Assembly (NCBI GenBank): GCA_004376055.2
Contig: CP049016.1
Coordinates: 3,038,001-3,102,000 of the forward strand
Length of the DNA: 64,000 nucleotides
Origin: Nitrospirales bacterium LBB_01
GTDB taxonomy: Bacteria > Nitrospirota > Thermodesulfovibrionia > Thermodesulfovibrionales > Magnetobacteriaceae
Reading direction: 5' to 3'
Numbering within the stretch: position 1 is the stretch's first letter; the number at the start of each line of letters is the position of its first letter. Below the pieces are notes generated by a model. The model worked only from the letters and a program-made list of their open reading frames with translations, ran no database searches and had not been told where the DNA came from. Position numbers and translations under genes: made by a program. Below are positions 48,531-61,032 of this stretch, piece by piece.

Positions 48531-49937
48531 TTGTCTAAAGAAGTAAGAGTGCGGTTTGCTCCAAGTCCTACAGGGTATCTTCACATAGGGGGCGCAAGGA
48601 CTGCCCTATTTAATTATCTGTTTGCTCGCAAACATAAGGGGACTTTTATCCTTCGCATAGAAGACACCGACAGGAGCCGCTCAACAGATGAGTTTATAGA
48701 TGCTATAATTGACGGCATGAAGTGGCTTAACTTAAGCCATGATGAGGGGCCGTTTCGGCAAACTGACCGCACCGATATTTATAACAAATACGCTATAGAT
48801 ATGCTTGAAAACGGAGCGGCCTACTACTGCTACTGTGAACCAGATGAGCTTGAGATGCGGCGAAAGGAGGCCCTTAAGCACGGAAAACCTCCTAAGTATG
48901 ACGGCAGATGCAGAGATATTAAAACGCCTCCCATAGGAATTAAACCCACAATACGATTTAAGATGCCTGAGCATGGGCAAACCATAGTTGATGACCTTAT
49001 AAAGGGCAAGGTTGATTTTGATAATTCCGTTTTGGATGATTTTATAATTATGCGCTCGGATGGCTCCCCCACATATAACTTTGTTGTAGTTTGCGATGAC
49101 ATAGATATGGGGATAACTCACATTATACGAGGCGATGACCACCTTAACAACACCCCTAAGCAGATGCAAATATATAAGGCCTTTGGCAAGATGCCTCCCC
49201 TGTTTGCACATTTGCCCATGATTCTTGGCTCTGACAAAACACGATTAAGTAAACGACATGGGGCAACCTCTGTGATGGCGTACAAAGATATGGGATATTT
49301 GCCGGAGGCACTGCTTAACTACCTTGTGCGGCTTGGCTGGTCTTTTGGAGATCAGGAGGTGTTTAGCGTTGATGAGTTAACAGAGAAATTTTCACTTGAG
49401 TCGGTCGGGAAATCCTCAGCCGTGTTTAATCCCGAAAAACTCCTCTGGCTTAACAGCGAGTATATTAAAAACTCTGACCTTGCAAGGCTGGCTTCTTTTG
49501 TCAAACCGTTTCTGCTGTCAATGAACATTGTTGATAACTCGTATGTGTTTGACGAGGGTTGGTTAGCAAGCGCCATTGCAACTTTATTGGAACGCTCAAG
49601 AACCCTTATTGAGCTTGCCAATTCCCTTAGATACTATATTGCCGACACTGTGGAAATTGATGAAAAAGCCGGCAAGAAGTTTATCACTCAGGATACAAAA
49701 CCATTTCTTACTGCTGTTGCAGATAAACTAAAAAACTTAGAGGACTTTACCCCAAAAGAAATAGAAGGAGTGTTTTTGTCTCTTATGTCAGAGCATAACG
49801 TGGCACTTGGGAAAATTGCCCAACCGGTAAGAGTTGCCATAACAGGAAACACGGTAAGCCCTGGAATTTATGAGGTTCTTGAGATTGTCGGAAAAGAAAA
49901 ATCACTTAGACGCTTAAACAGAGCTATCGAAAGCTAA
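48531..49937 (+). CDS. gltX: Glutamyl-tRNA synthetase
   Basis: GltX charges tRNA-Glu. The class I motifs are intact: PSPTGYLHIGGARTALFN (HIGH-type) and KTRLSKRHGATSV (KMSKS-type). Length 468 is normal. The start is TTG at 48531 (GGGGGTGTGG before it). The gene is convergent with the pseudokinase gene. Confidence 0.95.
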   Translation: MSKEVRVRFAPSPTGYLHIGGARTALFNYLFARKHKGTFILRIEDTDRSRSTDEFIDAIIDGMKWLNLSHDEGPFRQTDRTDIYNKYAIDMLENGAAYYCYCEPDELEMRRKEALKHGKPPKYDGRCRDIKTPPIGIKPTIRFKMPEHGQTIVDDLIKGKVDFDNSVLDDFIIMRSDGSPTYNFVVVCDDIDMGITHIIRGDDHLNNTPKQMQIYKAFGKMPPLFAHLPMILGSDKTRLSKRHGATSVMAYKDMGYLPEALLNYLVRLGWSFGDQEVFSVDELTEKFSLESVGKSSAVFNPEKLLWLNSEYIKNSDLARLASFVKPFLLSMNIVDNSYVFDEGWLASAIATLLERSRTLIELANSLRYYIADTVEIDEKAGKKFITQDTKPFLTAVADKLKNLEDFTPKEIEGVFLSLMSEHNVALGKIAQPVRVAITGNTVSPGIYEVLEIVGKEKSLRRLNRAIES

Positions 49938-49940
49938 TTA

Positions 49941-52900
49941 CTATGTTTCCCATACGGTTTCCCGTGCAAGCTTACAGAACTCACTAAGCGATATCCTTTC
50001 GTTTGGGGGGCTTAAGGCTGAATTTATCAATTTTCCCGCATTTTTACATTTTGTTAACTGTATTAAGTGCTCCCCTGAGACAAAACGCAGGGGGTGTCCC
50101 TCTGTAAGGTAATAGCCGATAAGACCAAGGAGCGCTACCGTGTTTTTTTCTATCGCCTGTTTAGAACTTAGAACGTTTTCCATTGCCGGAGTCTTTATAA
50201 AGTCCGGGTCTATAAAGGAAAGCTCTCCTGTGATTCTCTCCTTAAAAGTTTTCAAATAAATCCTGTCCATGTTGACTTTGGATATGCCGGTTGCCGCAAA
50301 GTGTATGCTGTCGCCATTTCTGAAGATGAAAGACGGGTGAAGGTTTGGCACAAACCAGCCCGGTTTGTGACTTAAGAGATGTTCAGCAAGTGAAATCAAT
50401 ATTTCTCCCGCCTCTTTTACCGTAACACCCTCTGTCACAGTCCTTTTTAAAGACTTATACGGCAAAAACTGCTCAACTAAAACAGTCCATCGTTTATTGG
50501 CGTGAACGTTTATCACCCGTGCAAAAGAGTTGGGAAGCGCCTTAATTTCAGCATCAAGACCTATGCTAAGTGATTTGTACTTATTAAATATACAACGCAA
50601 AATTACCCCAGTTCTTTTTAACCGGTTAAAGGCCTTTATGGTTAAGAAAGCCCCATGTACACGGGGCATATCTATTGGGGTGTAGTTTGACACAATTACC
50701 CTTGGCAGCGCTTCTCTTAAAAAACACTCCTCACACATGGAATTGATTAGCGGAGTAAGCTTGTCATTTAAATTTTTTAACCTATAAAAAGATAGCACTT
50801 TTAATTGGCCGGTAAGCCCTCTCACTCTGCTAAAAAAGTGCCTCCGGTAATTGATGAGATAATTCTCAAGTTTTTTCTCCGGTATGAATTCAAGAAATCT
50901 TAACACATCAGAGTCAGGGTCAGGCACTTTTAGAGTGGAGTCGTACTTAAGCACAAGTTTATGAAAATAATTGAAAGCAGGTTTGTACTCGTTCATGTTC
51001 ATAAAGACTCTGGCAAGCTCAAATTTAAGAATTGATATTTCAACATCCCCTTTGTCCGGATAGTCGTAAAAATCACGGCTCAAGCTATGTCTTATCTGAA
51101 ACACAAGCCAAAGAAAAGGCGAGCCTCTGTGGATTTTCTTATAAAAGAGTCGTTTATACAAATACGACAGGTAGCGGTAAAATGTCCATCTATCCTGATC
51201 TTTCAAGCTCCCTGAGTCAAGGACAGCCTTTTCATAAGTTGTAAGAACTTCAAGCCAGATACAGTCCTTTTCTTTTAACAAAAGAGCAAGAAAAATCCTG
51301 AATCTGAAATCGGTCTTTTGACTTAGAGGCCATTTGAAAAAATCCTCAGCCTCAAGATATTCATTTAACTCCTTAATGCCCTCCCGTTCTCTTATCAGTT
51401 TTTTAAAGAGCAGGGTTGTGCCCAGACGATCAAAAATATTCAGATAGATTTTTATGAAAAAGGTATAGTTAAATATTATTAAAACAATCGCTACCAGTAT
51501 CAGTATGCCAGAGGCTATTGGGAAAAATGCCTTTAAAAAAGATTTAACACGTCCAAGGTCTTTGTAAAACCCTGCAATACGTGCCTCTTCAAGAAACTCC
51601 GGGTCCTGCTTTACAACATAGTTAAGGGTTGTCTCAATGTTGTCTGAAAGCAGCCACTGTACAAGGACAAAATAATCGTACTTTGAAGCTCGTTTCCTTA
51701 AACTATCTTTCATCTCGCCAAGTTTTGCGTACCTTACAGCCTCACCCTCCATCCTTGTCTTTAGGGTATCAATTTTTTTACGAAAATCTGGATTACCAGG
51801 ATACAGTTGTGCCATTAATTTAAGCATATCCTTCAGATGACTCTCATTTCTTATGTCTATGAAATTATCTGTCTCTTCAAACAGTGTACTTGTCTCTTTT
51901 AGCGGATACACTCCCTGATTTAAATATCCCTGTTCGTTTGGTTCATAAAATTTGGCTTCAAATGCGTTGCCGCCGTCAAACCATATTGTGCCGTTACCGT
52001 CAGAGCCGATAAGCGCATACTCTCTGCCCTTTTCCTTTGACAGTGGAAACAGATAAATCTTATCAAGTTTGGGGATTTCTGCAGACACCGGAGCAAGTTT
52101 TATCGTCTTGCCGTGTTCATAAGCATTAAGAGTTGCTCCCTCGATAAAGATTAAATTGGAGGACACTGATTTATCATTATCACCTTTTAAGTAGATAGGA
52201 ATGTTTTCGTACTGCGGAATTGTATTAGCACTGCTGTCACTTTTACCGCTTACCGGGTCAAGGAAACTAACTGTAGAGTTATCCGTAAGTCTAACCATCA
52301 GGCGGCAGTCTTTACCGGTTTCACATATAAGAGGAATTTGATTTTTAGAATCATTTTTAATGCCTGAAGAAATACGTTTACTAAATTTTAAGGAGAGTTT
52401 TTCGGTTTCATGACTCCATGACAGAGTGTAGGTGGAAAGTGAATTGTCGGGGTGAGGAGCAATGACAAGCCATTTCACTGTGGCGTCATCTGCAGTTTTA
52501 ATCACTGTCGGCAACACTTTCATCTCACCGCTTACTTGAAACGTAACTTTCTCATACCCAAATTCCTTTCCTGTTGAGAGAAAAACGTCTATAAAATTCT
52601 GGTTCTTGTTTGAATAAGGAATGAGGAAATCACTTATTCCGTCATCGTTAAAATCATCAACCACGGGGGATGTAAAGCTGACTCCGGTCAATGAATAGCT
52701 ATGTATCTGAGGAGCAGCCATATTGGTCAGATATGCGCCGTCTATCAAATAAAGACCATGTCCGGAAACCAGAAAGTCCACATTACCGTCGTTATCAAAA
52801 TCAGCAACCGCGGGTTTTGAAACCACACTGCCTTCTATTTTAACTTCAAGTTTCTTAGTAAACGTTTTTCCGTCCACTATAACCATGAGACTCTCTTTGG

Positions 52901-53255
52901 CAGGCTTATCGTACTCAGAAAGTCTTGAAAACACAACAATATCTGGATGAGTGTCTCTTTCTAAATTTATCAGCATAGGCTGCACCTTTATTGAATCGCC
53001 TACCTTTAAAGACTTTACTCTTTTGCCGTCCTGTTCTAAAGCAAAAAGATAGCCTTTTTTTGTGCCAAATATGATTTCGCTTTTTCCATCGCCTTTAATA
53101 TCGCCAAACACAAGCGGCGTGGATATGTCTCCGTATTGGGTTACATAATCAGACAATTTCTCAGGAAAGTGCCAAAGAGCTCCGCCACCCTCAACGTTTC
53201 CGGCTATCAGTAACAACAGCAGTACCGGTATCGCTAAAATTCGTACCTTCTTCAC
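49941..53255 (-). CDS. Beta-propeller receptor with a cytoplasmic pseudokinase-like domain
   Basis: Order of domains in 1104 residues: signal peptide (1-24), an extracytoplasmic FG-GAP/VCBS-like propeller (about 30-440, blades with Asp-rich turns such as VADFDNDGNVDFLVSG and VVDDFNDDGISDFLIP), a membrane helix (about 578-600), a helical cytoplasmic part (about 610-840) and a kinase-like C-terminus (about 850-1100). In that last part FLTIKAF, LVEQFLPYKSLKR, VPNLHPSFIF and FAATGISK mimic the beta-3, hinge, catalytic and DFG segments, but the catalytic Asp residues are absent, so it should be inactive as a kinase. The GTG start has GGAG upstream. Signal and function are unknown. Confidence 0.8.
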   Translation of the reverse strand: MKKVRILAIPVLLLLLIAGNVEGGGALWHFPEKLSDYVTQYGDISTPLVFGDIKGDGKSEIIFGTKKGYLFALEQDGKRVKSLKVGDSIKVQPMLINLERDTHPDIVVFSRLSEYDKPAKESLMVIVDGKTFTKKLEVKIEGSVVSKPAVADFDNDGNVDFLVSGHGLYLIDGAYLTNMAAPQIHSYSLTGVSFTSPVVDDFNDDGISDFLIPYSNKNQNFIDVFLSTGKEFGYEKVTFQVSGEMKVLPTVIKTADDATVKWLVIAPHPDNSLSTYTLSWSHETEKLSLKFSKRISSGIKNDSKNQIPLICETGKDCRLMVRLTDNSTVSFLDPVSGKSDSSANTIPQYENIPIYLKGDNDKSVSSNLIFIEGATLNAYEHGKTIKLAPVSAEIPKLDKIYLFPLSKEKGREYALIGSDGNGTIWFDGGNAFEAKFYEPNEQGYLNQGVYPLKETSTLFEETDNFIDIRNESHLKDMLKLMAQLYPGNPDFRKKIDTLKTRMEGEAVRYAKLGEMKDSLRKRASKYDYFVLVQWLLSDNIETTLNYVVKQDPEFLEEARIAGFYKDLGRVKSFLKAFFPIASGILILVAIVLIIFNYTFFIKIYLNIFDRLGTTLLFKKLIREREGIKELNEYLEAEDFFKWPLSQKTDFRFRIFLALLLKEKDCIWLEVLTTYEKAVLDSGSLKDQDRWTFYRYLSYLYKRLFYKKIHRGSPFLWLVFQIRHSLSRDFYDYPDKGDVEISILKFELARVFMNMNEYKPAFNYFHKLVLKYDSTLKVPDPDSDVLRFLEFIPEKKLENYLINYRRHFFSRVRGLTGQLKVLSFYRLKNLNDKLTPLINSMCEECFLREALPRVIVSNYTPIDMPRVHGAFLTIKAFNRLKRTGVILRCIFNKYKSLSIGLDAEIKALPNSFARVINVHANKRWTVLVEQFLPYKSLKRTVTEGVTVKEAGEILISLAEHLLSHKPGWFVPNLHPSFIFRNGDSIHFAATGISKVNMDRIYLKTFKERITGELSFIDPDFIKTPAMENVLSSKQAIEKNTVALLGLIGYYLTEGHPLRFVSGEHLIQLTKCKNAGKLINSALSPPNERISLSEFCKLARETVWET

Positions 53256-53294
53256 TGTTTCTCCGCAAGCAGTTTCTCAACCCATTTGACTAAA

Positions 53295-53609
53295 TTATCT
53301 CCGCTCATAAACAACTTTTCCGGATAATGCGATTTCCTTATAAATCATATATGGATTGTCCTTAAGTTCATCAAACTTTGCAGGTGATTCAACAATTAAA
53401 TCCACTCCGGCTCCAATTCCATAAAGCGATCTGTATAAAGCATGAGTAAGCTCTCTTTTATTTTCTATTTCTTTTTTTAGAACAAAAATATCGTAATCAC
53501 TTTCCGCTGTAAAATCCTCTCTTCCCCGTGATCCAAAGAGGATTATTTTATCAGGATTTGCTACCCGAATAATTATTTGAATTGTTTTCTCTAACTGCAT
53601 ATCCATCAT
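53295..53609 (-). CDS. MNT-type nucleotidyltransferase domain protein
   Basis: A 104-residue minimal nucleotidyltransferase: LFGSRGREDFTAESDYDIFV holds the GSxGR and DxD sites. Such proteins are antitoxins that adenylylate HEPN-type RNase toxins. Here the downstream HEPN gene seems reduced to an 18-codon frame (53252-53308) that overlaps its end, after which the pseudokinase gene starts. It may therefore be an orphan. Confidence 0.85.
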   Translation of the reverse strand: MMDMQLEKTIQIIIRVANPDKIILFGSRGREDFTAESDYDIFVLKKEIENKRELTHALYRSLYGIGAGVDLIVESPAKFDELKDNPYMIYKEIALSGKVVYERR

Positions 53610-55253: not shown

Positions 55254-55670
55254 TTACTGGTTATAAACAGTCAGAGTGAGAACGTTTTTGGTGTCAACTC
55301 TTTGATAGTTGACCTCATCCATAAGTTGTTTTACGAAAAAAATCCCGAGACCACCGATTTGTCTATCTTCAAGTGACATGTCAAGGTCAGGCGCCTCTGC
55401 CTCAAGAACGTTAAAAGGAATGCCGGAATCAACTATTTCTATTACAAACTTATTTTCTCCGTCAGAGGTGCAGATTACAGAAATATCGCCCTCGTGCTCC
55501 ACATACGCATAGTTTATGACGTTAACCACAACCTCTTCACAGGCAAGCTCAATGTCCCCAATTTTCTCGTCAGCTATTCCAAACCCCTTTGCTGCCTCAG
55601 TTATCCGGTCTAAAAACTCATGGAGATTTTCCATCTTAGCCGGCAACTTTATTTCTGATAATGCTGTCAC
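55254..55670 (-). CDS. RsbW-like anti-sigma factor ATP-binding protein
   Basis: A GHKL-type ATPase: DIELACEEVVVNVINYAY (N box), IVDSGIPFN (G1) and GGLGIFFVKQLMDEV (G2). Such proteins phosphorylate STAS-domain antagonists and bind sigma factors. The STAS gene lies 5 bases upstream, so this is a partner-switch pair. The GTG at 55670 begins with TALSEIKLPAK; the frame extends to 55712. Confidence 0.86.
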   Translation of the reverse strand: MTALSEIKLPAKMENLHEFLDRITEAAKGFGIADEKIGDIELACEEVVVNVINYAYVEHEGDISVICTSDGENKFVIEIVDSGIPFNVLEAEAPDLDMSLEDRQIGGLGIFFVKQLMDEVNYQRVDTKNVLTLTVYNQ

Positions 55671-55675
55671 AAGGA

Positions 55676-56017
55676 TTACAACTCTTTCAGTGCTTCGTCC
55701 ATTGAGTTGCAAATTTTCAGCACGGTAGTCATGCCGGACATTTTCAACACTTTTAAAACCTGTTCTGTGGGCTCTATAAAGACAAGTTTACCCTCACACT
55801 TTTTTATCTCTTTGGCAGCGGCAAGAAAACTCCTTAAACCGGCACTGCTTACGTACTCAAGCCCTTTCAGTGAAACCACAACTTTAGCAGGATTCTTAGC
55901 TAAAACCTCTTTCATCTTTTCGTCAAAACCGGACGCACTCGTTGCATCCATCCGGCCACTTATAGAAATCACATCCAATCCGTTTATTTTATCTGCTGTT
56001 ACATCCACGGTGACCAT
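55676..56017 (-). CDS. STAS-domain anti-anti-sigma factor
   Basis: The 113-residue STAS domain has the phosphorylatable Ser motif YVSSAGLRSFLAA and the strand DVISISGRMDA. When unphosphorylated it would capture the RsbW-like kinase and free its target. A gene for the sigma factor is not adjacent. MITE copy 6 lies upstream. Confidence 0.9.
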   Translation of the reverse strand: MVTVDVTADKINGLDVISISGRMDATSASGFDEKMKEVLAKNPAKVVVSLKGLEYVSSAGLRSFLAAAKEIKKCEGKLVFIEPTEQVLKVLKMSGMTTVLKICNSMDEALKEL

Positions 56018-59565: not shown

Positions 59566-60876
59566 TCACTCGGTGTCGGATGAGGTTGTCTGACGGTCTT
59601 TTGCGAGTTTTTCGCTTGTTCTTGTAAGGCGGTCTATTAATGTCCTAAGAAAAACCCTGTTGAATCTGAGTTGACAGTGCACCGATGCCTTGTCAATCAG
59701 AGAGCCGTTTACTTTAAGCAAGGACACCTGTGTCAAAGATATAATATCTGCAGTTCTGCGGGCTTTTGACAAATACCCCATCTCTCCAAAACAATCCCCG
59801 TGTGTAAGTTTAACTAAGACATTGTCACCTTTTTTAACATACACCTCGCCTGAGACTATGATGTAGAAGGATTCGTCTATCTCTCCTTCGGTTATTATCC
59901 GCTGCTCCTCTTCAAACTCTACCCAATCAGAGGCCTTTATCACCTCCCACAGCTCAGAGTTGTAGAAATCCTTAAAGAAATCAAGTTTTTTAAGTTTTTC
60001 AAATTTCTCCTGCTCCTTAATGCCCTGTCCTGTGTGCTTGAGGGTTCTGTAGGCATGGCTTATATCGGCGGCAAAGTCAAGACCTCTTTGGTATCTATCA
60101 TCTGGGTTTCTGCTTAGAGCTTTCTTAATAATATTTTCTATCGTCTCGGGGATATCCGGTTTAATCTGTCTGATAGTAATCGGGTCTTCGGTTATGATTT
60201 TATATATAAGGCTTGATACGTTATCGCCGCTGTATGGGGGAGAGCCGGTTAAAAGTTCAAACATGACCACTCCCATTGAGTATAAATCAGTGCGGTTGGT
60301 CAGCTCTTCTTCTTTGACCTGCTCGGGGGACATGTATAGCGGGGAGCCGAGAAAGCCTGTTACTTGGGTCTCATCGCCTTTAATGATTTGAGCGACGCTA
60401 AAATCACCAAGTTTAACCTCCATGTCCTTTGTAAGCATAATGTTACCGGGCTTTATATCTCTGTGGATAACGCCAAGTGTGTGAGCGTAATCAAGAGCCT
60501 TACAGCACTTAAATATTATGGCAAGCACCTTTTCCTGTGGCAGAAGGTTAGATGTTCTGGAAAAATCGCGCAGAGTTTTGCCGCCCTTAATGTATTCCAT
60601 GACAAGATAGCTGTAACTGCCCTCCATTCCTGCGTCATACACGTGGACAATGTTAGGGTGGTCAAGCATACCGGCAACCCGTGCCTCGTTAAAAAACATC
60701 CTGCTATATCTTTGTGAGAAGTGCTTGTCTTGCATCATATCGGAAAGAGCCACTTTTAGAGCGACCTCTCTGTCTAAGAACGGGTCAAACCCCCGATAGA
60801 CAACACCCATGCTGCCGCGCCCAAGCTCCTCTTTTACCTCGTATTTACCAAGCTTCTCTATTTTCGTAAGTGCCAA
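59566..60876 (-). CDS. Ser/Thr protein kinase fused to a cyclic-nucleotide-binding domain
   Basis: Residues about 10-275 are a Hanks-type kinase: GRGSMGVVYRGFD, catalytic HRDIKPGNIML, and the metal-binding motif is DFS (GDFSVAQI) instead of DFG; the activation-loop GSPLYMSPEQ is intact. Residues about 300-420 are a cNMP-binding domain (EGEIDESFYIIVSGEVYVKK, FGEMGYLSKARRTAD). It is predicted to be a kinase regulated by a nucleotide. I chose TTG 60876 with AAAAGGAG upstream (436 residues) over the extension to 60957. It is divergent from argB. Confidence 0.87.
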   Translation of the reverse strand: MALTKIEKLGKYEVKEELGRGSMGVVYRGFDPFLDREVALKVALSDMMQDKHFSQRYSRMFFNEARVAGMLDHPNIVHVYDAGMEGSYSYLVMEYIKGGKTLRDFSRTSNLLPQEKVLAIIFKCCKALDYAHTLGVIHRDIKPGNIMLTKDMEVKLGDFSVAQIIKGDETQVTGFLGSPLYMSPEQVKEEELTNRTDLYSMGVVMFELLTGSPPYSGDNVSSLIYKIITEDPITIRQIKPDIPETIENIIKKALSRNPDDRYQRGLDFAADISHAYRTLKHTGQGIKEQEKFEKLKKLDFFKDFYNSELWEVIKASDWVEFEEEQRIITEGEIDESFYIIVSGEVYVKKGDNVLVKLTHGDCFGEMGYLSKARRTADIISLTQVSLLKVNGSLIDKASVHCQLRFNRVFLRTLIDRLTRTSEKLAKDRQTTSSDTE

Positions 60877-61032
60877 CTTGTTCTCCTTTTGATGTACCTT
60901 AAAGATAGCAGAAGTTGCGATGATTTGACAAGTTTTGCTCTTTACAGTCAGCAGCACAAATTTACAAACATAACTTATTATGATAGACTACTTTTAGCGA
61001 TTTTCATAAAAATAATTAAGGAGATACACTAT

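Follow-up and report, generated by a model that had tools for sequence, protein, structure and literature searches.

The minus-strand gene described here encodes a membrane protein in which an FG-GAP β-propeller and a protein-kinase-like domain lacking the catalytic residues are joined across a single transmembrane (TM) helix, and we propose, with moderate confidence, that it is a single-pass type I receptor with the propeller outside and a non-catalytic pseudokinase output inside. The predicted models support a bilobal Hanks/Ser-Thr protein-kinase-like fold in the C-terminal domain, and the conserved motif loss, kept by selection, supports a maintained pseudokinase rather than a decaying one, as judged from aligned sequences and models. 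The gene lies in a window of 64,000 nucleotides, the whole stretch of DNA that was analysed, with a GC content of 41.7 %, and the host genome, 3,273,455 bases long, forms a single contig. From the N- to the C-terminus, the protein consists of a signal peptide, the FG-GAP propeller, a helical stalk, the TM helix, a helical region and the kinase fold.

Table 1. Features of the receptor gene and its 1104-aa product. Coordinates are those of the window; residue 1 is the GTG at 53253-53255.
Feature	Residues	Coordinates	Strand	Basis or remark
Whole gene		49941..53255	-	GTG start, 1104 aa; ORF call and orthologues
Signal peptide	~1-23	53187..53255	-	N-terminal hydrophobic segment, KD 2.05
Extracytoplasmic FG-GAP β-propeller	~27-433	51957..53177	-	Pfam, AF2, Foldseek
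Ca-binding-type loop DFDNDGNVD	152-160	52776..52802	-	Counterpart in 13/13 aligned orthologues
Ca-binding-type loop DFNDDGISD	201-209	52629..52655	-	Counterpart in 13/13 aligned orthologues
Membrane-proximal helical stalk	452-575	51531..51902	-	AF2 secondary structure
Single TM helix	577-595	51471..51527	-	KD 2.95; C-terminal side net positive
Cytoplasmic all-helical region	602-847	50715..51452	-	AF2; Pfam scan without family
Pseudokinase domain	848-1104	49944..50714	-	AF2, Foldseek PDB, hmmsearch PDB, hhalign
β3 strand GVILRCIF, with Arg887 for the VAIK Lys		50586..50609	-	Register set by the sequence pattern and the AF2 strand
Catalytic-loop equivalent WFVPNLHPSFIF, with Asn971 for the HRD Asp and His973 for the Lys		50322..50357	-	hmmsearch, hhalign, orthologues
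DFG equivalent ATG, without Asp	988-990	50286..50294	-	hmmsearch, hhalign, orthologues

The open reading frame from which an earlier note on this DNA had started proved to be real, with full-length orthologues in other genomes at 32-83 % identity. A protein search of 61 relatives returned single orthologues without internal stops, and the window copy and 12 others are full length or nearly so. Because the orthologues are open along their entire length, the frame has not been misread, and a frame error or pseudogene was ruled out by these open copies together with purifying selection. Nei-Gojobori dN/dS ranges over 0.10-0.22 for the pseudokinase domain in the eight pairs compared and, similarly, over 0.12-0.17 for the ectodomain, and is mostly 0.1-0.2 and well below 1 in every domain, indicating purifying selection; some dS values of ~2 are saturated, and the pairs with dS <1 agree in this picture. 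The gene copies cluster by genus in the gene tree, as expected for vertical descent.

Within the host family (f1), the gene is present in 15 of 20 genomes, one copy each, and these are the only matches among the 177 genomes of the order (0 of 157 outside the family). The five family genomes without it are G009 (99 % complete), G007 (92 %), G012 (88 %) and two others of 64-75 %, and the absence from G009 is probably real because that genome is 99 % complete. No homologue was found in a search of plasmids and viruses, and among the matches listed in a profile scan of genome contigs there were FG-GAP matches only. In a phylum sample of 396 genomes, the sole match outside the family was a weak one in G200, which was rejected as a homologue because it is a different protein. 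That protein, from another family of the phylum (L048:607-2514, 635 aa), combines TIR, kinase-like and globin-like parts, the last at its C-terminus, and its kinase-like domain lacks HRD and DFG (LLTPQHVYYD, AIGVSN). We regard f1 as a magnetotactic family because the magnetochrome domain PF18509 is common in it (18 of 20 genomes) and rare outside it (8 of 379 genomes in the phylum sample). A link of the receptor to the magnetosome genes was rejected, as ~665 kb separate it from the magnetochrome gene, and G007, G009 and G012 carry magnetochrome genes and give no receptor match. A literature query on kinases in these bacteria returned nothing.

The signal peptide and single membrane helix read from the sequence at the outset are both present in every full-length orthologue, with the TM hydrophobicity peak at 577-595. 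The signal peptide and the positive-inside rule suggest that the propeller faces outward, although the charge difference in the window protein is small, with five K/R on each flank of the TM helix and a net charge of +2 outside and +4 inside. The Asp-rich FG-GAP propeller proposed by the same reading was borne out by an HMM search (Pfam FG-GAP_3, E=1e-7), and Pfam matched FG-GAP repeats in 13/13 orthologues. The ectodomain thus has the repeats with DxDxDG-type loops that define an FG-GAP β-propeller. Its AF2 model (mean pLDDT 76) is β-rich first, with an all-β propeller, and helical after, and confidence is low near residues 438-466. Foldseek matched this model to propellers in the PDB with E down to 1.7e-10, including the designed 'Cake' propellers and a KICSTOR subunit; the sequence profile of the ectodomain also matches Cake proteins, with a best E of 1.9e-23, a score inflated by high repetitiveness.

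On the cytoplasmic side, the resemblance to kinases claimed for residues 850-1100 held, whereas the cytoplasmic part as a whole begins at ~602, and its first ~245 residues form a separate all-helical region, for which a Pfam scan matched no family. The AF2 model of residues 602-1104 has a pLDDT of 85.1 and a pTM of 0.73, and this and the ectodomain model rest on shallow alignments of 12-13 rows. In a Foldseek search of the PDB, 50/50 matches listed for this predicted model were protein kinases, with a best E of 3.4e-8 and with mycobacterial PknA/PknB entries and staphylococcal Stk1 at the top. The TM-scores by target, 0.44-0.66 among the matches listed, imply a kinase fold that has diverged. 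The window protein alone gave no Pkinase match in Pfam. A family profile built without any kinase, however, retrieved from the PDB by hmmsearch 56 matches, 55 of which are Ser/Thr kinases (best E 0.0044), aligning PNLHPSxxFWDG...ATGxSK against the HRDxKPxN...DFGLSK region. With hhalign, the family profile aligned to 11 kinases of the same genome at 95.6 % (E 1.1e-8), and a control with the ectodomain instead of the kinase-like domain reached 0.7 %. The register first read from the sequence is thereby agreed upon by HMMER against the PDB, hhalign and Foldseek. Because the hhalign alignment begins at the hinge, the glycine loop and β3 were assigned from the sequence pattern and the strand order of the model.

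The replaced motifs quoted in the earlier note, VPNLHPSFIF for HRDxKPxN and FAATGIS for DFG, were found at residues 969-978 and 986-992. The three residues characteristic of active Hanks kinases, the β3 Lys, the HRD Asp and the DFG Asp, correspond here to R887, N971 and A988, and Thr1039 replaces the αF Asp. The same positions are replaced across five genera: the β3 position is Arg in 14/14 readable orthologues, the HRD Asp position is Asn in 14/15 orthologues and Ser in L013, and at the DFG Asp position every copy that can be read has Ala, Gly or Cys, the stretch being masked in L009. The glycine-rich loop is reduced to HGxF in most copies. HRD and DFG are intact in none of the orthologues, and homologues with intact motifs were sought in the order and the phylum sample and not found; no active paralogue of the same layout was seen in the genome either, where WD40, CHASE2 or FGE-sulfatase domains accompany the large kinases that were scanned. 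That several separate catalytic positions have been lost suggests that the domain is inactive as a kinase, and the protein probably acts via partner binding, not phosphorylation.

As a receptor, the protein would signal by scaffolding or docking. The N-terminal propeller, probably Ca2+-stabilised, would lie outside the inner membrane and bind a ligand or a component of the envelope, and binding or clustering could pass via the helical stalk and TM helix to the cytoplasmic helical/pseudokinase module. This module, which would not phosphorylate, may provide a surface for docking or allosteric control, most probably of an active Hanks kinase of the cell or of kinase substrates. The same genome holds 12 kinase genes over the Pfam cut-off, whose products could be the partners of the receptor. 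In the window itself, 59566-60957 (-) encodes a Hanks kinase that looks active and also has a cNMP-binding domain (HRD intact, DFG reading DFS), and L092 carries a second kinase-cNMP protein. The genome also encodes WD40-repeat kinases of 1235 and 1532 aa (L082:3424-7128 and L083:2707-7302). Near the receptor gene, at 55254-56017 (-), the genes of an RsbW-like ATPase and of a STAS protein overlap and appear to form a partner-switching pair.

We consider it rather unlikely that the protein is instead a constitutive structural scaffold that anchors or assembles an envelope complex and transmits no signal. The precedent is EssB/YukC, a single-pass membrane pseudokinase that scaffolds type VII secretion (PMC12599244), and the ectodomain and helical parts of the present protein are as strongly conserved as the kinase-like part. 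In four genomes of genus g3, a gene for an SLT lytic transglycosylase is located directly upstream in the same direction. In other genera and one g3 genome, however, its orthologue is elsewhere, so that the adjacency is no more than a hint of a cell-wall connection, and no secretion or assembly gene is conserved next to the receptor gene. No conserved operon partner was found around the orthologues, whose neighbours differ between genera. In the window, the receptor gene and a glutamyl-tRNA-synthetase-like gene (48531-49937) are convergent, and an MNT-type nucleotidyltransferase gene precedes the receptor gene. In two sister genomes, a HEPN gene sits between the MNT gene and the receptor gene (HEPN gene L068:10267-10668, Pfam E 4.8e-26). 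The window retains an 18-codon HEPN remnant, MSGDNLVKWVEKLLAEKQ, at 53252-53308 (-), apparently from an internal in-frame deletion, which leaves its MNT gene without the usual HEPN partner.

An atypical enzyme, in which the kinase fold serves a different reaction, as it does in SelO and SidJ, or Arg887 takes part in nucleotide binding, appears distinctly improbable. R887, N971, H973, P974, G990, K993 and D997 are invariant or nearly so, and some pseudokinases retain ATP binding or possess other enzymatic activities, ActPs2 proteins, which share the Lys-to-Arg and Asp-to-Asn changes at β3 and HRD, being modelled as ATP-binding (PMC12599244). However, SelO and SidJ retain the β3 Lys and DFG Asp (PMC12599244, Table 1), whereas here these and the HRD and αF Asp are all lost. 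That the gene encodes a decaying kinase receptor en route to loss is scarcely credible, for although it is missing from the nearly complete G009, all domains are under purifying selection, the same positions are replaced across the five genera and no copy contains a stop.

The receptor with a non-catalytic output that we favour differs from the known systems with which it was compared. The combination of a receptor-like exterior and an inactive kinase had been called unusual in bacteria; this stands for the architecture but not for bacterial pseudokinases as such, which are a known class with a review of the Ser/Thr families (PMC12599244). That review mentions neither FG-GAP nor propellers, and the kinases listed in a survey of bacterial architectures from 2005 include some with PQQ or WD repeats, with no mention of FG-GAP. 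In the openly licensed literature we found no paper on a bacterial pseudokinase with FG-GAP, nor a described family with an RTK-like order and an FG-GAP propeller. MviN/MurJ (ActPs3), an essential membrane protein of peptidoglycan synthesis, recruits FhaA once PknB has phosphorylated it and is, with EssB/YukC, an example of a bacterial pseudokinase with such a non-catalytic role (PMC12599244). Like the present protein, MviN has a fully degraded kinase fold with a His-Pro-Ser catalytic loop (LSIDHPSR vs VPNLHPSF here), but its β3 motif is VALT and its activation loop carries a deletion (PMC12599244), whereas β3 here reads VILR, and MviN structures were absent among the hmmsearch PDB matches at E<=10. 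ActPs2 pseudokinases have a long activation-loop insertion (~250 residues) and a TM segment after the kinase, whereas here the loop is short, with ~45-50 residues from ATG to the αF equivalent, and the TM helix precedes the kinase. In EssB/YukC, the pseudokinase is cytoplasmic too but N-terminal (EssB residues 9-211), with no propeller described (PMC12599244), whereas ours is C-terminal; EssB/YukC was absent from the hmmsearch PDB sequence matches, and the neighbours of the receptor gene are unrelated across genomes (not individually scanned for T7SS genes).

A function is known for few bacterial pseudokinases, and because its receptor layout is clear, its catalytic loss is fixed in five genera and it occurs as one copy per genome, this family offers a clean test of dead-kinase signalling outputs in bacteria. 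PknD-type receptor Ser/Thr kinases, with an NHL β-propeller sensor, likewise have a propeller outside, one TM helix and a kinase fold inside. PknD, however, is catalytically active and runs from an N-terminal kinase to a C-terminal propeller, whereas the present protein has the opposite order, a propeller of the FG-GAP type and a kinase without catalytic residues. The eukaryotic pseudokinase receptors ErbB3 and EphB6 run from an outside part through a TM segment to a pseudokinase. The domain order is alike in the present protein, the claim of homology being restricted to the kinase fold, and it may, tentatively, be a bacterial counterpart of these animal receptors, confined to magnetotactic Nitrospirota, that is ligand-gated and controls Hanks kinases allosterically and without catalysis.
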